Virus record (IMG/VR): IMGVR_UViG_3300046804_000858
Coordinates: 1-23,762 of that record
DNA: 23,762 bases
Reading direction: 5' to 3' (one strand)
Origin: a virus
The notes beneath the pieces were generated by a model. The model saw only the letters and a list, made by a program, of their open reading frames with translations, was not told the origin of the DNA and made no database searches. Shown here piece after piece: positions 2,798-13,488 of the stretch (positions within the stretch are counted from its first letter, which is position 1; each line of letters opens with the position of its first letter). The position numbers and the translations under genes are program-made.

Positions 2798-3853
2798 ATG
2801 GCTATTCTTACTGAACCCCAACTTAGCGGTCGCGGTCTACGCGAAGACTTGATGGACATGATTGCGCTCGTTGACGCAAAGGACACCCCCTTTACGTCGA
2901 TGGCTCGCAAAGGCAGCAAGCCCGGAAATATGTACTTCCGCTGGCAGTCTGACTCGCTTCCTACCCCTCAGGTAGGTGGTGTGGTGGACGGCACGGACGT
3001 TTCCAGCTACGACAACTATGTCGTTGGCTACCGCGCTGAACTCGCAAACTACGCACAGGTATTCCGCCGTGCAGTGCGCGTGTCCAAGCTCACCCAGGAC
3101 ATCGCTGATGTCGCAGGTGTGCGTGACGAACTGGCTGACAACGTCAGCAAGGGCATCACGGGCATCAAGCGTGACATGGAAGCGACCTTCACGTCGAACC
3201 AGCTCTCGCAGCAGGACAACGGCACGACCCAGGCCTACCGCACCGCTGGTGTGCAGACCTGGATCAGCAACGCTGGTACTGGCACGCCTACTCCCGGAGA
3301 CATCCCTTCGCAGTTCCGTACTCCTCTGACCTCGATCCTTACTGGTGCATCCAGCGGGTTGACGGACGCAGGCGTGCAGGGCTTGCTCAAGTCGATCTTT
3401 GATCAGACTGGCCACTACACCAGCTTCGACGCCATCGTCGGAACGGACCTGAAGCGTGCTTTCACTGGCCTGCTTGGAACCACGGCTCTGACCACGGTTA
3501 GCAACTCCAGCAATACGCTTGCTGCCGGTGCTACCAAGGTGCAGACCTTCCAGCGTGACGCTGCGGCTGACACCTTCATCCAGAGCTTGGACGTGTTCCA
3601 AGGTGACTTCGGAACGGTGCGTCTGCATCCTTCCACGTTCATCGGAACCGTGTCCGGAACGACCTGGACGCCCACGCCTTACAAAGGTCTTGTGCTTGAC
3701 ATGAACCTCATCGAGGTTCGCTACGGCGGAAATGTCGCTAACGTCACTGCGCTGCCAGATTACGGTGGTGGCCCTGCTCGCTTGATCGAAGCAGTTGCTG
3801 GTTTGGTTGTCGGCAACCCGCTCGGCCTTGGGAAATTCGACTACTCCTCCTAG
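2798..3853 (+). CDS. Major capsid protein, SU10-like (DUF5309) family
   Basis: Builds the icosahedral head shell. The 351-residue protein has the N-terminal pattern of the SU10/DUF5309 capsid family as I recall it: a short arm, then DTPFTSMARKGSKPGN and FRWQSDSLPTP, a region of helices with RRAVRVSKLTQDIADV, and KRDMEATFTSNQ. The C-terminal half carries the conserved-looking FQGDFGTVRLHP. These fit an HK97-type fold, with length typical for the family. The ORF is rich in C-ending codons compared with neighbours, consistent with high expression. There is no Shine-Dalgarno sequence in the 35-base gap upstream, which is A/T-rich. The gene ends with tandem TAG codons (3851-3856) and is followed by a hairpin-rich gap. 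Confidence 0.85.
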   Translation: MAILTEPQLSGRGLREDLMDMIALVDAKDTPFTSMARKGSKPGNMYFRWQSDSLPTPQVGGVVDGTDVSSYDNYVVGYRAELANYAQVFRRAVRVSKLTQDIADVAGVRDELADNVSKGITGIKRDMEATFTSNQLSQQDNGTTQAYRTAGVQTWISNAGTGTPTPGDIPSQFRTPLTSILTGASSGLTDAGVQGLLKSIFDQTGHYTSFDAIVGTDLKRAFTGLLGTTALTTVSNSSNTLAAGATKVQTFQRDAAADTFIQSLDVFQGDFGTVRLHPSTFIGTVSGTTWTPTPYKGLVLDMNLIEVRYGGNVANVTALPDYGGGPARLIEAVAGLVVGNPLGLGKFDYSS

Positions 3854-3891
3854 TAGTTGTTGATCGGTGACACCTACCTAGTGGCGTGACT

Positions 3892-3907
3892 AATCGGAGA
3901 GACGATT
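3892..3907 (+). other. Hairpin of unit 1
   Basis: AATCG (3892-3896) pairs with CGATT (3903-3907) across the loop GAGAGA. The lead GTGGCGTGAC lies just upstream at 3881-3890. TCTTTAG follows, a poor U-tract. Confidence 0.6.
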
Positions 3908-3940
3908 TCTTTAGCCTAAGCGACACCTGCTAGTCTGCGA

Positions 3941-3957
3941 CTAAGGCCCAGCCTTAG
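3941..3957 (+). other. Hairpin of unit 2 (strongest stem)
   Basis: CTAAGGC (3941-3947) pairs perfectly with GCCTTAG (3951-3957) around the three-base loop CCA. It lacks the GAGAGA loop of the other two units. It is followed by the 8-base palindrome GATGCATC (3957-3964) and no U-run, so it is not a typical terminator. Confidence 0.6.
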
Positions 3958-3986
3958 ATGCATCGTAGTTCAAGAAGTGGTGTGAC

Positions 3987-4002
3987 TGCTGGAGAGACAG
4001 CA
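3987..4002 (+). other. Hairpin of unit 3, just upstream of the next start codon
   Basis: TGCTG (3987-3991) pairs with CAGCA (3998-4002) across the loop GAGAGA, the same loop as unit 1. The next gene's ATG is at 4013. GGAG at 3991-3994 is at the base of this loop, 18 bases before the ATG and too far for ordinary Shine-Dalgarno use unless structure shortens the distance. Confidence 0.6.
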
Positions 4003-4012
4003 CAATTTTACT

Positions 4013-4357
4013 ATGATTACAATCCATACTGATTTAGTGCCACAGCTTGAAGAAGAGTTGCGTCGAGGCTGGCAGAAGAACCGCATTGAAGCGCAGGTTC
4101 AGGCCAAGCAAAGCGAAAAGCTCAACCGTCAGCGGCACAAGTCAATAGAAGGATTGGGTCAGCTTACCGCAAGGATTCCTCCCACGGCGTATCACTTTTG
4201 GGGACAAAAGCTCGGATACGAGTGCTGGAACGATAAAGCGTTCATGGATGAGTTTTTGCGTGACAATCCCGAGTGTCGAGTCAATAGTGGAGGGACTAAA
4301 GAAATCCACGTTGGCTGGACGCCAACCAATGTTCGTTCCCGTACCGTTTATCAATGA
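4013..4357 (+). CDS. Hypothetical protein downstream of capsid gene
   Basis: A 114-residue soluble protein. The first 45 residues form a charged, probably helical segment (LEEELRRGWQKNRIEAQVQ). The second half carries PPTAYHFWGQKLGYECW and FLRDNPECRV, a pattern I have seen in unnamed phage proteins encoded near capsid genes. Two Cys residues are present but no metal-binding cluster. The ATG at 4013 follows the third intergenic hairpin, and the stop overlaps the next start as ATGA (4354-4357), tying it to the connector gene in one transcript. A head-decoration or head-completion role is possible from position only. Confidence 0.75.
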   Translation: MITIHTDLVPQLEEELRRGWQKNRIEAQVQAKQSEKLNRQRHKSIEGLGQLTARIPPTAYHFWGQKLGYECWNDKAFMDEFLRDNPECRVNSGGTKEIHVGWTPTNVRSRTVYQ

Positions 4358-6537: not shown

Positions 6538-9500
6538 ATGTCTGACATCAAAATCTCACAACTTCCAGTAGCCAATGTCGTCAATGACAATGACATTGTT
6601 GTTTTAAACCAAGGAGGTGACACAAAGACTGCTGCGAAGAGCTTGATTGTTGCGGGACTGGCGACGACTGACCAGATCTCAGCATTTGCCACAACTTCAC
6701 AGGTTGAGTCGATTGCTTCGGCACAAATTGCTGCGATCACTCCTGCTTCGATTGGCGCCCTTTCGACGGATGCCGCTTCCGGGTTTGCCACTACTTCACA
6801 GTTAAGTGGTTTTGCTACTACTGATCAGCTTGAAGGTTACGCAACAACGACTGACATCCAAGGCATTGCATTCACCTCGCAGTTGTCCGGTTTTGCTACG
6901 ACTGACCAGATCTCTGGATTCACCACAAGCTCACAAGTAGAGGCAATCTCAGCTTCGCAAATCTCGCTGATTACGCCAGAATCAATCGGGGCTTTTGCGA
7001 CCAGCGACGTTATTCAGATCAGCCAAGGTGGAACAGGAGAAGTTACATCGACTGCTGCGCTTGCCGCTCTTGGTGGTATATCGGGTAATGAATCAGTTTC
7101 TGGCGATTTGTCTGGAACTGTACTTTCGTCAAATGTTATTGCGCTTGCTGGCAATCCTCTTTTGTTTCCACAATTTCCAAGCAGTGGACAAATTCTGCAA
7201 TGGAATGGCACTGTATGGGAGCCTACAAATAATCCCGGTGGCACAGTTACTTCGATTACAGTTGGCCCTGAGTTGACTGTTGACGGTGTTCCCGGCGGCA
7301 CGCTTTCACAGTCTGGAACAATTGCCCTTGCTGGCACCGGGGTTCCTGCCGGATCTTACGGTTCTTCCACGCAAGTAGCTGCCATCACTTTTAATGGGTT
7401 TGGCCAGATCACATCGGCATCGAACGAAGCCATCACGCCCGCTGGCATCGGCGCACTATCTACAGATGCTGCTTCTGGCTTTGCTACGACAGGTCAGATC
7501 TCTGGTTTTGCGACAACCGATCAGTTGTCTGGCTTTGCTACAACCACGGACATTCAAGGGATCGCCTTTACGTCCCAGTTGGCAGCATTCACCAATAGCG
7601 CACAGGTAGAGGCGCTGGCCTCTGCTCAGATCGCTGCTATCACGCCCGGCTCAATTGGCGCTGTAGCAACTAGCGACGTCATTGCTATCACCAAAGGCGG
7701 CACAGGATCAACCAGTGCAGCAGCAGCTCTCACGGCTCTTGGTGCTATGTCTGCAACGCAGGCTGCTGGTGGAGACTTGAGCGGTAACTTGCCAAGCCCA
7801 ACGGTGGCTAAGATCCAAGGGATCTCTGTCACGAACGTCACGCCACTTGATGGCCAAGTGTTGCAGTACGACACGGCAACGTCAACGTGGGTGGCTGGAG
7901 CAATTCCAAACGGTGGATCTGGTGGTGGAGGACAGACATTCTTCTTCAACTACAATACGGCAGCGGACGCGCCAACAACCGGGCTTCCTACAACGCCAAC
8001 CATTGTTAAAGAACTTGGGCGCGTATCTGACACGGTTGGGACTAGTTATACGTCTGGAGTCTTATCTGAAGTTACATACGACTTGGTTGTTCACTTTGTC
8101 ACTGATGTTCTTGATCCTAACATCACAGCAATTCCCGCTGGATTGTTTGACTTCAATTTCTGGGCATCATCCAACGCCAACGCAGCTAACCAAACGATTG
8201 CACAGATTAAAGTCTTCAAGTACGACGGAACGACTGCCACGCTGCTTTCCACCTCGGACGACATCTCAATCTACGATCCAACGGTAACTGCTCAGTACAT
8301 TGCTTCGGTGGTGCTGCCACAGACGACTGTTGCGCTTAATGATCGCCTGTATATTCAGTTCTTGGCAAAAGCTACGGCAAATAACCGCACGGTTACGTTT
8401 AATTTTGGTGCGACACAACCTTCGCATGTTCACACTACCATTCCATCTGTGGGTGGCACTGGCTTGGTTAAGGTTATCAACGGAGTGTTCCAGTCCCCGG
8501 CATCCAAGCTTGTTGACTCGGATGTTGCAACTAACGCTGCAATCTCGCTCAGTAAGATTGCCATGTCTGAGGTCAGCGTGCTGACTGTAGATGGCCTGAC
8601 TGGCGGTGGCGATCTTTCGACCAGCAGAACCTTGTCGCTGACCACTACTGGTGTGTCTGCACTGTCTTACGGCTCTTCGACACAGGTGTCCGCATTTACA
8701 GTAGATGCCTACGGCAGGCTCTCAGCGGCAAGTAATGTAGCCATCAGCGCATCTGGTATTGGCGCACAGCCAGCACTGACGAGCGCAGCACCTGCTGCAA
8801 TTCAGCAGGGTGGCACTGGAGCTACAGATGCAGTTTCAGCGTTGAACAACCTTGGCGGCGTATCTTCTAGCGCACTTAGCGGGTATGCCACGACTGGTCA
8901 AGTAAGTGGATTTGCTACTACAAGCCAATTGTCTGCTTATCAACCTGCGCTTACTAGTGCAGCTCCGGTAGCTATCGAACAGGGTGGCACAGGCGCTACA
9001 ACGGCTGTAGCGGCTCTTAGTAACCTCGGAGGTATCACCTCTGCGGCATTGTCTGGGTACGCTTCCACGAGCCAATTGGCGGCTTATCAACCTGCACTTA
9101 CGACGGCTGCTCCACTTGGCATCGATAAAGGTGGCACAGGTGCAACCACGGCGATTGCAGCAATGACCAATCTTGGCTCGTTGCACTTTACTGGCGGATG
9201 GTCGCAAACAAGCGTTGTGACTGGCACAATGGATACTGGCGTTACGCCAAACACGTTTACGGTTACCGCCACAGGAGCCTTGTCAGTAGATAGTGGCGCA
9301 CCAATTGCAGGTGACATTGTTGTATTTACAGCGCAACCAACAGCCAGTCAAAGTTTTGGTCGAGATAACGGGCCTTGGGTTGTGGTAAACCCCGGTGGAG
9401 TTGGAGTTCAGGCTACGTTTGTACGTCCAGATTGGTTTTCTGGAACAGTCAAAACTGGGATTTTAATTACAAATCAGTTTGGGTCAGCAAGAACTGGCAC

Positions 9501-10143
9501 AACTCATGTAATTCAAGGGCCGGTAACCACAACAAGTGGTGATTTTATAGCTGTAGGCACTGATGTGCTTAGCGTGTTCACCGCATATCAACGCGCCGGG
9601 AATGCTACTAGCGGAGCAAACACATACAGCGGAAGACAAACATTTTCCGCAGCATCAAGCAGCACTACCGTTAACCCGATTAATTTTAGTTCATCAGCAC
9701 CTGTATTGTTATCCTCGCGCCAGCTTGGTGCACTTGAGTGGGATAACCAACAGCTCTACATCACTTCATCCACGCAGTTTTCTTCGCTTAGCCGCAACGC
9801 AGTTGCTACGGCTACAGTGCTGATCAACGCGCAGACTGGCGCGTATACGGTTACGAACATCGCCAGTGGATCGGATGCTGGAAAATTAATCACGGTCAAT
9901 AGCGCCTCTGCTGTTACTGTAAGCATTCCGACAGACGCTACGGCTAATGCTGACTTCCCAGTTGGCACACAGATTATGGTCATGCAGCTTGGTGCAGGTC
10001 AGGTGACGGTAGCCGCGGTTACGCCGGGGACGACTGCTGTGAACAGCAAGAACGGCACGAAGACATCTGGACAATATGCAGTCATTTCGCTAATCAAAGT
10101 GGCCGCAAATAGCTGGGTCGTTGGTGGCGATGCAACAACGTAA
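6538..10143 (+). CDS. Long repetitive tail fibre protein
   Basis: At 1201 residues this is the largest gene in the window. The N-terminus (MSDIKISQLPVANVVNDNDI) parallels that of the preceding fibre. Residues about 40-450 and 690-885 are shaft repeats: GFATTDQL-type units, YGSSTQV/GRLSAAS modules and five GGTG-type units ending in LGG-like motifs. A Gly-rich linker (about 459-465, GGSGGGG) leads to a globular beta domain (about 466-640, starting QTFFFNYNT). The C-terminal part (about 1080-1201) is beta-rich, with YTVTNIASGSDAGKLITV and FPVGTQIMVMQLGAGQV, a pattern I associate with fibre ends. Probably a long trimeric host-binding fibre. The start lies two bases after the previous stop. Duplicated modules differ strongly at synonymous positions. 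Confidence 0.85.
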   Translation: MSDIKISQLPVANVVNDNDIVVLNQGGDTKTAAKSLIVAGLATTDQISAFATTSQVESIASAQIAAITPASIGALSTDAASGFATTSQLSGFATTDQLEGYATTTDIQGIAFTSQLSGFATTDQISGFTTSSQVEAISASQISLITPESIGAFATSDVIQISQGGTGEVTSTAALAALGGISGNESVSGDLSGTVLSSNVIALAGNPLLFPQFPSSGQILQWNGTVWEPTNNPGGTVTSITVGPELTVDGVPGGTLSQSGTIALAGTGVPAGSYGSSTQVAAITFNGFGQITSASNEAITPAGIGALSTDAASGFATTGQISGFATTDQLSGFATTTDIQGIAFTSQLAAFTNSAQVEALASAQIAAITPGSIGAVATSDVIAITKGGTGSTSAAAALTALGAMSATQAAGGDLSGNLPSPTVAKIQGISVTNVTPLDGQVLQYDTATSTWVAGAIPNGGSGGGGQTFFFNYNTAADAPTTGLPTTPTIVKELGRVSDTVGTSYTSGVLSEVTYDLVVHFVTDVLDPNITAIPAGLFDFNFWASSNANAANQTIAQIKVFKYDGTTATLLSTSDDISIYDPTVTAQYIASVVLPQTTVALNDRLYIQFLAKATANNRTVTFNFGATQPSHVHTTIPSVGGTGLVKVINGVFQSPASKLVDSDVATNAAISLSKIAMSEVSVLTVDGLTGGGDLSTSRTLSLTTTGVSALSYGSSTQVSAFTVDAYGRLSAASNVAISASGIGAQPALTSAAPAAIQQGGTGATDAVSALNNLGGVSSSALSGYATTGQVSGFATTSQLSAYQPALTSAAPVAIEQGGTGATTAVAALSNLGGITSAALSGYASTSQLAAYQPALTTAAPLGIDKGGTGATTAIAAMTNLGSLHFTGGWSQTSVVTGTMDTGVTPNTFTVTATGALSVDSGAPIAGDIVVFTAQPTASQSFGRDNGPWVVVNPGGVGVQATFVRPDWFSGTVKTGILITNQFGSARTGTTHVIQGPVTTTSGDFIAVGTDVLSVFTAYQRAGNATSGANTYSGRQTFSAASSSTTVNPINFSSSAPVLLSSRQLGALEWDNQQLYITSSTQFSSLSRNAVATATVLINAQTGAYTVTNIASGSDAGKLITVNSASAVTVSIPTDATANADFPVGTQIMVMQLGAGQVTVAAVTPGTTAVNSKNGTKTSGQYAVISLIKVAANSWVVGGDATT
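6763..6885 (+). repeat. Fibre-coding duplication, copy 1
   Basis: Encodes residues 76-116 of the long fibre (starting STDAASGFATT). It matches the block at 7459-7581 at 37 of 41 residues, but 24 of those 37 identical residues use a different codon. Confidence 0.85.
7459..7581 (+). repeat. Fibre-coding duplication, copy 2
   Basis: Encodes residues 308-348 of the long fibre, the partner of 6763-6885. The flanks continue as a weaker match, since both copies lead to a SIGA and TSDVI segment and then to a GGTG unit. Confidence 0.85.
8767..9180 (+). repeat. Tandem QPALTSAAP / GGTGAT shaft repeats
   Basis: Three consecutive copies of a module reading roughly QPALTSAAP, then IEQGGTGATTAVAALSNLGG, with GGTG-unit starts at 8800, 8974 and 9121. 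Spacing is 174 and 147 bases, differing by how many GYATTSQL-like units lie between. Two further GGTG units occur near 7018 and 7687. This is typical of fibre shafts that lengthen or shorten by recombination. Confidence 0.8.
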
Positions 10144-10146
10144 TTT

Positions 10147-12408
10147 ATGTTCTCTTCTATGTTATCCTTACTAGGCAGTCTCAGGCGCGGAAACTTTGTC
10201 CAAAACTCACTTCGGTTTAGATCGAGTGCTTCTGCCTACCTGAGCAGGACGTTAGGAACACCAACCAGTGGAACAACATGGACATGGAGCGCGTGGGTGA
10301 AGCGGGGTGGCTTTTCTGCAACTCAGGGGTTGCAACATGGATTTAGCGCAAACAATAATGGAGGTGGGATTCTTTTTAGTTCGGACTCAATACACGTTTA
10401 TGATTTTCCAATAAGCACAAATTGCAGTCTTATTACAACACAGGTATTTCGTGATCCGTCAGCTTGGTATCACATTGTTGTTCAAGTTGATACAACCCAA
10501 CCTACTGCATCAAATCGCGTTCGCATTTATGTAAATGGCTTGCAGGTTACATCATTTAGTGCAGCAACTTATCCACAACAAAATACTGTTTTTCGTATGG
10601 TTGCCGCTGGCAACACTGGATCAGTTGGACGTTATTTTGACGGAACTAATTATTACTTTGACGGCTACCTCACGGAAGTCAACTTCATCGATGGCCAAGC
10701 ACTGACACCATCGTCCTTCGGCCAGATCGAATCCACGACCGGCGTGTGGTCGCCCAACCAGTACGTTGGCAGCTACGGCACGAACGGCTTCTACCTCAAG
10801 TTTGCTGACGCAAGTGCTGCTACGGCTGCTGCGATTGGCAAGGATAGCTCAGGCAACGGCAACAACTGGACACCGAACGGCATTAGCGTGACGGCTGGCG
10901 CGACGTACGACAGCATGATCGACGTCCCGGTGAACTACAGTGACAGCGGAAATGGCAGGGGGAATTATGCGGTGTTGAATTCGTTGGATAAGGTAACTAC
11001 AGCTACCTTGGCTGCTGCAAATCTTGAAACTACGTCTGCTGCTGCCCAAAATATTATTGGCAGCATGTCAATGGATAGCGGCAGTTGGTATTGGGAAATT
11101 GCCTATAGCGCAGCAACGGCATCTCAGCTTGTTGGTGTTTATAAGGCTGCTGCAACAACAGTTTCAGTCACTCCAACAACCAGTGTAATTGGACTTCGAT
11201 TTAATGCAGACACTGGTGCATTAGATTATACCGTCAATGGGTCAACGTATACGTCGATTGCAACGGGCCTTACTGGAGGTGGATATTTCCCATATGCTGG
11301 ATCATTAACTAACGCAAAGGTTATTTACGCCAACTTCGGCCAGCGCCCCTTCACATACACGCCTCCCGCTGGCTTCAAGGCACTCAACACGAACAACCTG
11401 CCTACACCGTCCATCGTCAACGGAGCCAACTTCATGGCTGCTACGACGTACACGGGCAACGCTGCTGCACGGTCACTGTCGAATGCGGTGAACAACGTGT
11501 CGTTCCAGCCGGACTTGGTGTGGATCAAATCACGTACACCGGGAGCTACAGGTCATGCGCTGTTTGATTCTGTGCGTGGAGCGCAAAAATACTTATCATC
11601 TGATACAACTGCTGCTGAAACGACCAACGCAAACACGCTGACTGCTTTTACTGGCGACGGTTTTAGTCTTGGGACGGATACGACGCTGGTGAATGCAAGT
11701 GCAAACTCGTATGTGGCTTGGCAGTGGAAAAGAAGCATTACGTCTGGATTGGACATCGTTTCTTATGCTGGTACTGGCGTGGACAGAACAGTTGCCCATA
11801 ACCTTGGCGTTGCCCCAGCAATGATCATTGTGAAAAGATCGACGGCAGGTGCAGCGGCCAGTTGGTTTGTGCGCCATGCATCTATTGTACCCGCAAACAG
11901 CATATTGCTTAACCTAGCAAATTCACAATTCTCTACTCCTACAGTATGGGCCAACACAGCGCCAACATCCAGTGTGTTTACTGTTGGCACATCCGTAGAC
12001 ACAAATGCCTCTGGCATTAATTATGTGGCTTATTGCTTTGCTGAAATTGCAGGGTTTAGTAAGTTTTCTAGCTACTTGGGCAATGGGTCTGCTGACGGAC
12101 CGTTTGTGTTCTGTGGATTTAGGCCAAAGTTTGTGATGGTAAAATCATTAACTCCAAACGGATATAATTGGATAACGGTAGATACAACAAGAGATACTTC
12201 TAATTTTGTTCAGAATAAATTAGCGCCAAATTTATCTGTAATCGAAAATGATCCAGCCACTGTTGGAGTATCCTCAGTAAACACCTTTGATATTTTGTCT
12301 AACGGATTTAAATTGAGATCAACCAACATAGAGACAAACCAAAGCGGAACCACTTACATCTTCGCAGCCTTCGCAGAAGTGCCCAGTAAATACGCTTTAG
12401 CTCGCTAA
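10147..12408 (+). CDS. LamG/SPRY-domain receptor-binding tail protein (DUF7483-like C-terminus)
   Basis: A 753-residue adhesin. Residues about 20-190 form a concanavalin/LamG-like jelly roll (SLRFRSSASAYLSRT, WTWSAWVKRGG, WYHIVVQVD, RVRIYVNG). Conserved-looking linkers follow (YLTEVNFIDGQALTP; SYGTNGFYLKF; GKDSSGNGNNWTPNGISVT). Residues about 270-400 resemble a SPRY/B30.2 beta-sandwich (SGSWYWEIAYS, VIGLRFNADTGALDYTVNG, YANFGQRPFTYTPP). From about 440 the C-terminus has two related beta units (FQPDLVWIKSR, VAPAMIIVKRS, FRPKFVMVKS and similar), which I recall as DUF7483-type. Probably binds host glycans as a fibre tip. Base composition changes abruptly within the gene, suggesting domain shuffling. 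ATG follows the fibre stop by three bases. Confidence 0.8.
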   Translation: MFSSMLSLLGSLRRGNFVQNSLRFRSSASAYLSRTLGTPTSGTTWTWSAWVKRGGFSATQGLQHGFSANNNGGGILFSSDSIHVYDFPISTNCSLITTQVFRDPSAWYHIVVQVDTTQPTASNRVRIYVNGLQVTSFSAATYPQQNTVFRMVAAGNTGSVGRYFDGTNYYFDGYLTEVNFIDGQALTPSSFGQIESTTGVWSPNQYVGSYGTNGFYLKFADASAATAAAIGKDSSGNGNNWTPNGISVTAGATYDSMIDVPVNYSDSGNGRGNYAVLNSLDKVTTATLAAANLETTSAAAQNIIGSMSMDSGSWYWEIAYSAATASQLVGVYKAAATTVSVTPTTSVIGLRFNADTGALDYTVNGSTYTSIATGLTGGGYFPYAGSLTNAKVIYANFGQRPFTYTPPAGFKALNTNNLPTPSIVNGANFMAATTYTGNAAARSLSNAVNNVSFQPDLVWIKSRTPGATGHALFDSVRGAQKYLSSDTTAAETTNANTLTAFTGDGFSLGTDTTLVNASANSYVAWQWKRSITSGLDIVSYAGTGVDRTVAHNLGVAPAMIIVKRSTAGAAASWFVRHASIVPANSILLNLANSQFSTPTVWANTAPTSSVFTVGTSVDTNASGINYVAYCFAEIAGFSKFSSYLGNGSADGPFVFCGFRPKFVMVKSLTPNGYNWITVDTTRDTSNFVQNKLAPNLSVIENDPATVGVSSVNTFDILSNGFKLRSTNIETNQSGTTYIFAAFAEVPSKYALAR

Positions 12409-12412
12409 CCTT

Positions 12413-12673
12413 ATGCCAAAAAAATCCGTATCACTATCCGTTGGCCGAGGCGAGAAGCTGCCTGCGTCGAGGGGCGCAGGGCTGACGGCCAAGGGTCGCG
12501 CTAAGTACAATCGCGCTACAGGCAGCAACCTGAAGGCTCCTGCACCTAGTCCAAAGACCAAAGCTGACGCTGGCCGCAAGAAGAGCTTTTGTGCTCGTAT
12601 GGCAGGTGTGGTCGCTAAAGCTAAAGGCCCGGCAGAACGGGCCAAGGCAAGCATGAGACGTTGGAAGTGCTAA
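12413..12673 (+). CDS. Small basic DUF6321-like protein
   Basis: An 86-residue, strongly basic protein that fits a family I recall as DUF6321, widespread in tailed phages and without known function. Hallmarks seen are the N-terminal SVGRGEKLPASRGAGLTAKG, RAKYNRATGSNLK in the middle, KSFCARM near residue 60 and the C-terminal MRRWKC. The paired Cys residues and many Lys/Arg suggest nucleic-acid or structural binding, but this is inference. It sits between the receptor-binding protein and the lysis genes, with four bases (CCTT) between the previous stop and its ATG. Confidence 0.75.
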   Translation: MPKKSVSLSVGRGEKLPASRGAGLTAKGRAKYNRATGSNLKAPAPSPKTKADAGRKKSFCARMAGVVAKAKGPAERAKASMRRWKC

Positions 12674-12677
12674 TCTT

Positions 12678-12857
12678 ATGGAACACATGATGGAAGTGGT
12701 GGCAAGCAAGGTATTGGAACAAGGATTTTCGGTATTTGTACTGGCCGTTGCCCTCTGGTATCTGCACGTTAAACTTACCAAGGTAGAGAACAAGATTACT
12801 GAATGCGAGCAAGACAGACTTAAACTTTGGGAAAAGATAGCTCAACTACACAACTGA
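12678..12857 (+). CDS. Small one-helix membrane protein, holin or spanin candidate
   Basis: A 59-residue ORF opening with an amphipathic start (MEHMMEVVASKVLEQG), one hydrophobic segment (FSVFVLAVALWYLHV, about 17-31) and a charged helical tail (KLTKVENKITECEQDRLKLW) that looks like a coiled coil. This layout is like BhlA/UviB-type holins, which have one membrane helix and a charged tail; a short inner spanin has a similar shape and cannot be excluded. It lies four bases after the previous stop and two before the next membrane gene, upstream of the endolysin, which supports a lysis role. Confidence 0.65.
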   Translation: MEHMMEVVASKVLEQGFSVFVLAVALWYLHVKLTKVENKITECEQDRLKLWEKIAQLHN

Positions 12858-12859
12858 TT

Positions 12860-13015
12860 ATGAAAGAGTACTTGAAACAACCATCCACTTGGCTCGGCAT
12901 TGTTAAACTTGGCACGGCTATCGGGTTGTACAGCACCGGCATCGGTGGCGCAATTGCCCAAGGTGTCATGGCCATCTTTGGTGTCATCGATGTTATTCGT
13001 AACGAAAAACTGTGA
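12860..13015 (+). CDS. Small hydrophobic membrane protein, holin candidate
   Basis: A 51-residue protein from the ATG at 12860. After MKEYLKQPSTWLG come hydrophobic stretches (IVKLGTAIGLYSTGIGGAIA and QGVMAIFGVIDVI) that can form one long or two short membrane helices, then a charged end (RNEKL). The KQPSTW.G opening is one I associate with small phage membrane proteins next to endolysins. A longer reading from a TTG at 12827 would overlap the previous gene by 31 bases, so the ATG two bases after that gene's stop is preferred. The stop overlaps the endolysin GTG start (GTGA), so the two are probably translationally coupled. Confidence 0.7.
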   Translation: MKEYLKQPSTWLGIVKLGTAIGLYSTGIGGAIAQGVMAIFGVIDVIRNEKL

Positions 13016-13488
13016 TTGACGAACGGTCAGCCAAATTCATAGAGACGCTGCTACCTGAAGTCAGGGACGCATTTATTGCGTTCATAGTGGATGCTAAAGA
13101 ATTGGTTGCCAAAAGCGGGCTGGATTACAAGGTCATCTGTGGAACTAGGACGTTTGAGGAACAAGCGGCGCTGTATGCCAAGGGGCGCACAGCTCCGGGG
13201 CCAAAGGTGACAAATGCCAAGCCAGGATCATCCATGCACAACTTCGGGCTCGCCATCGACTGCGGCGTGTTCAAGGGTAAAGTGTACATGGATGGCAGCA
13301 CACCCGCTGACGCGAAGCTCGCTGACCTTATGCATAAACACGCCTCAACCTTGTGCGCAAAGCACAGGCTACGCTGGGGCGGCAACTTTAAATCGCTATA
13401 CGATGCGCCTCATTTTGAGTATGATACTCCTTATTCTCTTGCTGAGTTGCGCACTCGCAGGGAAGCCAAGAAATCTTTAATCGCCTAA
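13012..13488 (+). CDS. Endolysin, M15-type L-alanyl-D-glutamate / D-Ala peptidase
   Basis: Cleaves cell-wall peptide cross-links to release progeny. The 158-residue protein is a single-domain VanY/M15 metallopeptidase: GTRTFEEQAALYAKGRT (about 44-60), the zinc motif SSMHNFGLAIDCG with His76 and Asp83 as likely ligands, and RWGGNF (121-126) with DAPHFEY, whose His134 is the third ligand. The pattern matches T5-type endolysins that cut L-Ala-D-Glu, although D,D-carboxypeptidase specificity cannot be excluded. There is no signal peptide or cell-wall-binding domain, so export needs a holin, matching the membrane genes just upstream. GTG is the start, overlapping the preceding stop. Confidence 0.9.
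   Translation: MIDERSAKFIETLLPEVRDAFIAFIVDAKELVAKSGLDYKVICGTRTFEEQAALYAKGRTAPGPKVTNAKPGSSMHNFGLAIDCGVFKGKVYMDGSTPADAKLADLMHKHASTLCAKHRLRWGGNFKSLYDAPHFEYDTPYSLAELRTRREAKKSLIA

Follow-up and report, generated by a model that had tools for sequence, protein, structure and literature searches.

A tandem two-stem RNA element behind a phage capsid gene and its possible role in protein-independent antitermination

A gap of 159 bp lies between the major capsid gene of a virus (IMG/VR record IMGVR_UViG_3300046804_000858, positions 1 to 23,762) and a 114-aa gene downstream in the same operon, which raises the question of what this gap encodes and what it does for the phage. A preliminary description of the window (the whole stretch of 23,762 nucleotides that was analysed) had placed three tandem RNA hairpin units here and had proposed a new RNA element that controls capsid mRNA stability or serves as a protein-binding array. 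The gap encodes a structured, cis-acting RNA in two tandem copies, the parts of which are given below in window coordinates.

2798–3853, + strand: major capsid gene, directly upstream of the element (PHROG 1328 major head protein, E 2e-39)
3867–3908, + strand: unit 1, compact, without insert (48.6 bits with the covariance model R1, a score by construction since this unit sat in the R1 training set; both stems likewise in ViennaRNA)
3870–3874, + strand: unit 1, P1 5' strand ACACC, pairing with GGCGT at 3883–3887 with one A-C mismatch (sequence, R1 alignment)
3888–3890, + strand: unit 1, linker GAC between P1 and P2 (invariant, 39 of 39 rows of alignment A1)
3892–3907, + strand: unit 1, P2 hairpin AATC-G[GAGAGA]C-GATT (apex invariant; stem varies with pairing kept)
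3920–4002, + strand: unit 2, long form with an insert in the P1 loop (R1 36.4 bits, E 8e-8; P1, insert hairpin and P2 in ViennaRNA)
3923–3927, + strand: unit 2, P1 5' strand ACACC, pairing with GGTGT at 3979–3983 (sequence, R1, ViennaRNA)
3941–3957, + strand: insert hairpin CTAAGGC-CCA-GCCTTAG inside the unit 2 P1 loop (relatives have other inserts or none here)
3984–3986, + strand: unit 2, linker GAC (sequence; invariant in A1)
3987–4002, + strand: unit 2, P2 hairpin TGCT-G[GAGAGA]C-AGCA (sequence, R1, covariation, arm test)
4004–4009, + strand: T-rich stretch AATTTT after P2 (common in relatives by positional base frequencies)
4013–4357, + strand: downstream gene of the operon, 114 aa, starting 10 nt from the P2 end (without PHROG match)

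Each unit consists of P1 (ACRCC/GGYGU), an invariant GAC, and P2, a variable stem topped by G[GAGAGA]C, an apex that does not vary. P1 measures about 5 bp and tolerates big inserts in its loop, whereas P2 is 4–5 bp of free sequence with the loop GAGAGA, replaced by GAAAGA in some phages. The joint between them is GAC plus 0–1 nt, some of which pairs with the 5' flank in predicted folds. R1 matched positions 3869–3908 of unit 1 and 3922–4002 of unit 2, the latter including a 49-nt insert, and an R1 search of the window gave nothing convincing beyond these two. The core pattern (GGYGTGAC, an arm of 3–6 nt, GGAGAGAC and a pairing arm) was found twice in the window and in 0 of 300 shuffles, with about 9e-5 expected.

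The leads of the preliminary description were located correctly (GTGGCGTGAC at 3881–3890, GTCTGCGAC at 3933–3941 and GTGGTGTGAC at 3977–3986), as were the identical GGAGAGAC apices at 3896–3903 and 3991–3998, the stems of which differ yet pair (AATC/GATT and TGCT/AGCA). The division into three units was not borne out, since R1 and the relatives give two. What was formerly counted as a hairpin unit of its own is a variable insertion lodged in the second unit's P1 loop, and the likeness of the 3933 sequence to the other leads arose by chance. The recurring GTGGYGTGAC leads form the 3' strands of P1, and the P1 5' strands are ACACC within GYGACACC; the recurrence of GCGACACCTGC had thus been seen rightly, while its pairing with GGTGT as the P1 5' strand had been missed.

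The same stems were obtained for both units by ViennaRNA without comparative input. Fold energies were unremarkable (z of -1.5 for the whole gap, and -1.3 and -1.9 for the two units), so thermodynamics by itself says little and the structural support is comparative, with the relatives as independent evidence for unit 1. An IMG/VR scan with the capsid returned 396 relatives, and 80 loci were taken for comparison. Three of these (L002, L037 and L039) stop before the capsid-downstream region; in all 77 loci having sequence there, the covariance-model search placed the element behind the capsid gene (164 R1 matches, 164 of 164 on the coding strand). Relatives differ in unit number, insert and stem sequence.

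Covariation in alignment A1 (39 selected units) was 0.458, compared with 0.125 after shuffling and at most 0.058 after sliding. Pairing was found in 88.8% of its cells (72.4% shuffled), and 80 cells were changed on both sides (27 shuffled). Units of A1 had been picked with a P2 filter, and the arm-pairing test was repeated without a pairing filter, which gave 83% paired against 43% shuffled (maximum 54%) and fully paired arm pairs in 61% against 8%. Alignment A2 (109 model matches) gave a covariation of 0.422 against 0.131 shuffled. P1 flips as a whole among relatives (ACACC/GGTGT to ACGCC/GGCGT and back), and positional frequencies revealed further conserved bases, namely GYG 5' of ACACC and UGC...AGU around the P1 loop. 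No model match was obtained in control genomes where the linear 15-base pattern occurs by chance. From the covariation in A1 and A2 and the unfiltered arm-pairing test, it can be concluded with very high confidence that the element is a structured RNA, as judged by sequence comparison; the compensatory stems and invariant apex that had been read as a conserved RNA structure from the window are upheld by the relatives.

The element was also found in unrelated phages, prophages, phage-plasmids and conjugative plasmids. In a viral scan for GGTGTGAC N2-8 GGAGAGAC, most of the matches listed were complete units, with as many as five in an array. BLAST with consensus units added cultured carriers, among them E. 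coli phage mEp390, Klebsiella P7641, Cronobacter CS01, Morganella IME1369_02, Pseudomonas Medea1 and Itty13, Stenotrophomonas phiSHP3, cyanobacterial phages and a Rhodobacter phage, nearly always with the element in unannotated gaps. The E. coli and Klebsiella phage copies score low with R1 (15–24 bits), have the P2 loop GAAAGA or GAAGAGA and use other P1 sequences (for example AGUUC/GAACU in mEp390); they are variants tied to the element by architecture, position and P2 loop, not by a strong model score. The model matches in pEIB202 and pVb1978 are weak, at 11.6 bits and E 0.8. Among sampled bacterial genomes, the element was confined to Pseudomonadota, where it was present in 4 of 198, 3 of 274 and 4 of 240 genomes of gamma- and alphaproteobacterial groups (11 of 712, two of the 11 having been chosen beforehand); it was present in 0 of 249 Bacillota, 0 of 198 Bacteroidota and 0 of 149 Actinomycetota (0 of 596). 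A stricter filter was used for this sample, and these counts are lower bounds. A pattern scan of genome contigs gave mostly chance matches (45 of 81 without a stem) and was superseded by the model searches.

No Rfam family matched at the elements, either in the window (at the gathering score) or, at E up to 5–10, in the relatives and the carriers unrelated to them, and glycine and glutamine riboswitches, C4, isrK, tmRNA and known ribozymes were thereby rejected as candidates. The literature search gave HK022 put as the sole comparable case, and King in 2011 reportedly treated further antiterminator RNAs of phages. As far as was searched, the RNA family is new to Rfam and to the searchable literature, in line with the new RNA element of the preliminary description; it may have been described earlier.

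Genomic contexts were compared across carriers. The element lies between cI and the left operon in mEp390, Klebsiella P7641, Medea1 and an E. coli prophage (L331), with the E. coli phages having it on the left operon only; just past cro-like genes in L323 and L115; and at the head of RecT/exo recombination operons in L160 and EBPR podovirus 1. It precedes holin/terminase or HNH/terminase (lysis/terminase) genes in several records, and adjoins capsid genes in unrelated phages too (L117, L149 and phiSHP3). These early-operon leaders, the sites before terminase genes and tRNAs, and the conjugative plasmids speak against the role specific to capsid mRNA that had been supposed. Of 25 annotated records, 22 by our own count have an upstream neighbour that runs in the same direction as the element. 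In about 10 contexts (L102, L088, L120, L141, L108, L095, L077, L073, L048 and L047) tRNA genes follow directly and always on the same strand, the tRNA starting 28–39 nt from the start of the GGYGTGAC-type motif, a few bases past P2. Up to five or six tandem units occur in one place, and some copies stand where an operon ends and a convergent gene follows. The shared feature of the contexts is untranslated RNA inside an operon, from which the operon-end copies differ.

T7-type RNA polymerase was found in 0 of 29 metagenomic element-bearing records, in a search that detected the N4-like positive control, and in 0 of 15 relatives. Carriers thus almost never have such an enzyme, which indicates that their genes are read by the host polymerase. 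A weak copy was present in Pokken, an N4-like phage; in its relatives, genes of this sort are transcribed by an RNA polymerase of the phage itself. GGAGA resembles the T7 start, but a promoter for a phage RNA polymerase was rejected because both stems covary and carriers are without T7-type polymerase.

Several further observations were made in these neighbourhoods. The phage family of the window has a second element site directly behind a RusA-like resolvase gene (L332:6772-6813 in relative G003, where it lies about 22 kb past the capsid, and the same place in G004, G011, G012 and G013). In G003, two separate ORFs encode a DnaB-like replicative helicase, the break falling just past Walker A (GGETKSGKTMLALNIIANLINE* / MNKGILVISLEMP; L332:7712-8419 and 10661-11245). 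Genes for exonuclease VIII and a DNA methyltransferase lie between these halves, and no intein is obvious; L337 has the same arrangement (9536-10192 / 12610-13191), and the split recurs in the family. The window itself holds a fibre-like ORF of 1201 aa (6538-10143) with many frame-preserving 27-nt repeats (GFATTSQLS/GFATTDQ type). The left-operon leaders of mEp390 (L369:4600-5280) and the E. coli prophage (L331:5950-6810) share an untranslated structured region of about 700 nt, which contains GTAGCCGGAATGTGCAAG ... GGCGATACGGTGTGAC and several GGAAAGAC hairpins, and the annotated ORF mEp390_036 that overlaps it is probably spurious. A Microbulbifer phage-plasmid (L323:6003-6338) carries isrK RNA and C4 antisense RNA less than 120 nt after the element, followed by replication genes. 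In Cronobacter phage CS01 (L370:5034-5227), Rfam gave weak matches of tmRNA type directly past the element (alpha_tmRNA at E 0.016, under the gathering score). The Marinobacter copies (L345, L347 and L366) lie 100–300 bp from IS1595-type transposase genes and are convergent with them.

In HK022 put, two stem-loops are separated by a nucleotide at their bifurcation; the RNA is located downstream of PL and PR, needs no phage protein, and affects both intrinsic and Rho-dependent terminators (PMC9378689). The element resembles putL and putR in its two adjacent stem-loops (about 1 nt at the bifurcation for put; compared by the R1 structure, ViennaRNA folds and a putL fold), in its left-operon leader and post-cro sites in temperate phages, and in having no dedicated protein gene beside it. 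This early-promoter position holds for mEp390, P7641, Medea1, the E. coli prophage, L323 and L115, whereas the window copies belong to a late operon. Stem II of put differs in being a long interrupted hairpin with the apex AGGAU, where the element has GGARAGAC; put sequences contain neither GGARAGAC nor GGYGTGAC, and tandem arrays, pre-tRNA sites and post-capsid sites are not known for put. R1 run with filters off on HK022 900-2700 of L322 reached at best 3.8 bits, outside the put sites, and homology to put was therefore rejected both by R1 and by sequence. On RNA polymerase, the target of put is the zinc-binding domain of beta', and put binding suppresses pausing and termination.

Other known systems share single traits with the element. 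Antitermination leaders and spacers of rrn operons (boxB-boxA-boxC, Nus factors) are alike in that the element would also serve untranslated RNA (tRNA segments) and the host RNA polymerase; their structure is different, and no boxA-like sequence was seen in the units read. C4 and isrK immunity RNAs of P1, P22 and P4-like phages (RF01695, RF01394) are likewise phage leader RNAs, and the L323 element is just upstream of both, but they are separate RNAs and neither Rfam model matches the element. CsrA/RsmA targets, named in the preliminary description, are also tandem with GGA near a hairpin apex. The CsrA consensus is ANGGA in a loop, and the conservation here is the opposite: the bases ahead of GGA are variable and paired, the GAGAC that follows GGA is invariant, and P1 covaries, so CsrA binding is unlikely and such sites were rejected.

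We tentatively favour the reading that the element is an RNA-only antitermination or anti-polarity element, put-like in action, that would influence the host's RNA polymerase while untranslated phage RNA is being made. The nascent element RNA would act on the host elongation complex, either by itself or with the help of a universal host factor, and the polymerase would then cross long untranslated stretches (early-operon leaders, gaps past highly translated genes such as capsid, and tRNA clusters) without pausing or Rho-dependent or intrinsic termination. In the window phage, transcription might in this way be kept going from the capsid gene into the tail genes downstream. The reading is favoured by the conserved fold, nut- and put-like positions, sense-strand placement and tRNA adjacency, by host RNA polymerase use, the restriction to Pseudomonadota and the put-like architecture, and by first genes of left operons that are not arginine-rich N-like proteins (four operons). 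It is weakened by several observations: intrinsic-terminator-like sites are not enriched downstream (11 sense versus 11 antisense in 600 nt), some copies stand at operon ends before a convergent gene, arrays of five or six exceed what processive antitermination should need, the E. coli phages have the element on the left operon only, Pokken carries a weak copy, and put is not seen by R1. The broader proposal is somewhat more doubtful, namely that this is a new family of protein-independent antiterminator or anti-polarity RNAs, unrelated to put in sequence, modular and often tandem, with which mobile elements of Pseudomonadota (many unrelated phages, but also phage-plasmids and conjugative plasmids) would drive the host RNA polymerase through untranslated sequence and clusters of tRNA genes.

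Much of the same evidence can be read in other ways. Abutment on tRNA 5' ends, placement 3' of an abundant capsid mRNA, copies at operon ends and tandem copies would all suit RNA processing or stability, with hairpins that are seen by a host RNase or chaperone, or that block exonucleases, and so set the ends or half-life of mRNA and tRNA segments. Stems of 4–5 bp are short for RNase III or an exonuclease barrier, however, an invariant loop on a free stem points to loop recognition instead of mere blocking, and sites at operon heads ahead of the first gene are less expected; this role is considered unlikely. Loop recognition by a phage protein was considered as well, with P2 (loop GARAGA) bound like boxB by an arginine-rich N-like antiterminator or another RNA-binding protein. 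The early-operon, nut-like positions and the short purine-loop hairpin recall lambda-type nut (boxA/boxB with N), in which the boxB loop is GAAGA or GAAAA. N/boxB pairs co-diverge, whereas this loop is constant across distant phages and plasmids of alpha- and gammaproteobacteria; moreover, the first left-operon genes are not arginine-rich (first genes only, in four phages or prophages), the neighbourhoods of the elements yielded no candidate protein in common, and nut has no counterpart to the covarying P1. A boxB-like site is considered less likely still, though a protein-binding array, as first suggested, keeps some probability.

Three further explanations have little in their favour. Many copies are a hairpin followed by a T-rich stretch, as expected of simple intrinsic terminators or module insulators, and the preliminary statement that no U-runs follow was not quite accurate, because AATTTT stands 2–7 nt past the second hairpin and relatives are T-rich there (54–61% T at +5 to +7). 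Its dismissal of simple terminators nevertheless holds: P2 is short at 4–5 bp and free in composition rather than GC-rich, the T-rich run begins only from about +5, a terminator scan gave only 5 stem pairs with unit 2 marginal and no excess over shuffles, serial copies occur within operons as well as in leaders that precede every gene, and P1 and the invariant loop would be superfluous, all of which makes this account highly improbable. Nearly as hard to credit is a feature at the DNA level (a site of recombination or cassette insertion, or a mobile hairpin, that does nothing as RNA); the mosaic of inserts and copy numbers, the neighbouring tRNA cassettes and the IS1595 transposases beside the Marinobacter copies would fit it, but the strict coding-strand orientation, the compensatory changes in both stems and the asymmetric invariant loop do not. 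Also highly improbable is catalysis, with the element acting as a new small self-cleaving ribozyme, or as another kind of catalytic RNA, to cut the transcripts of the phage. The element is compact, has many invariant unpaired or linker bases (GAC, GAGAGA and UGC/AGU) and occurs near tRNAs and in phages, where ribozyme classes are found, and known ribozymes in Rfam do not match; no junction or cleavage-site pattern was recognised, though, operon-leader positions fit poorly, and tandem copies would shred the mRNA.

To our knowledge, antitermination by RNA alone has been described for HK022-like phages and in few cases besides. If the antitermination reading is true, the element would be a general answer of phages and plasmids to transcription of long untranslated stretches by the host polymerase, and RNA-only antiterminators would be spread far wider than put. 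As a marker it would allow operon heads to be annotated in many uncultured phages, and it is a compact RNA part that is directly testable in E. coli K-12. Even if its role should be processing or stability, the element represents a widespread structured RNA family missing from Rfam.
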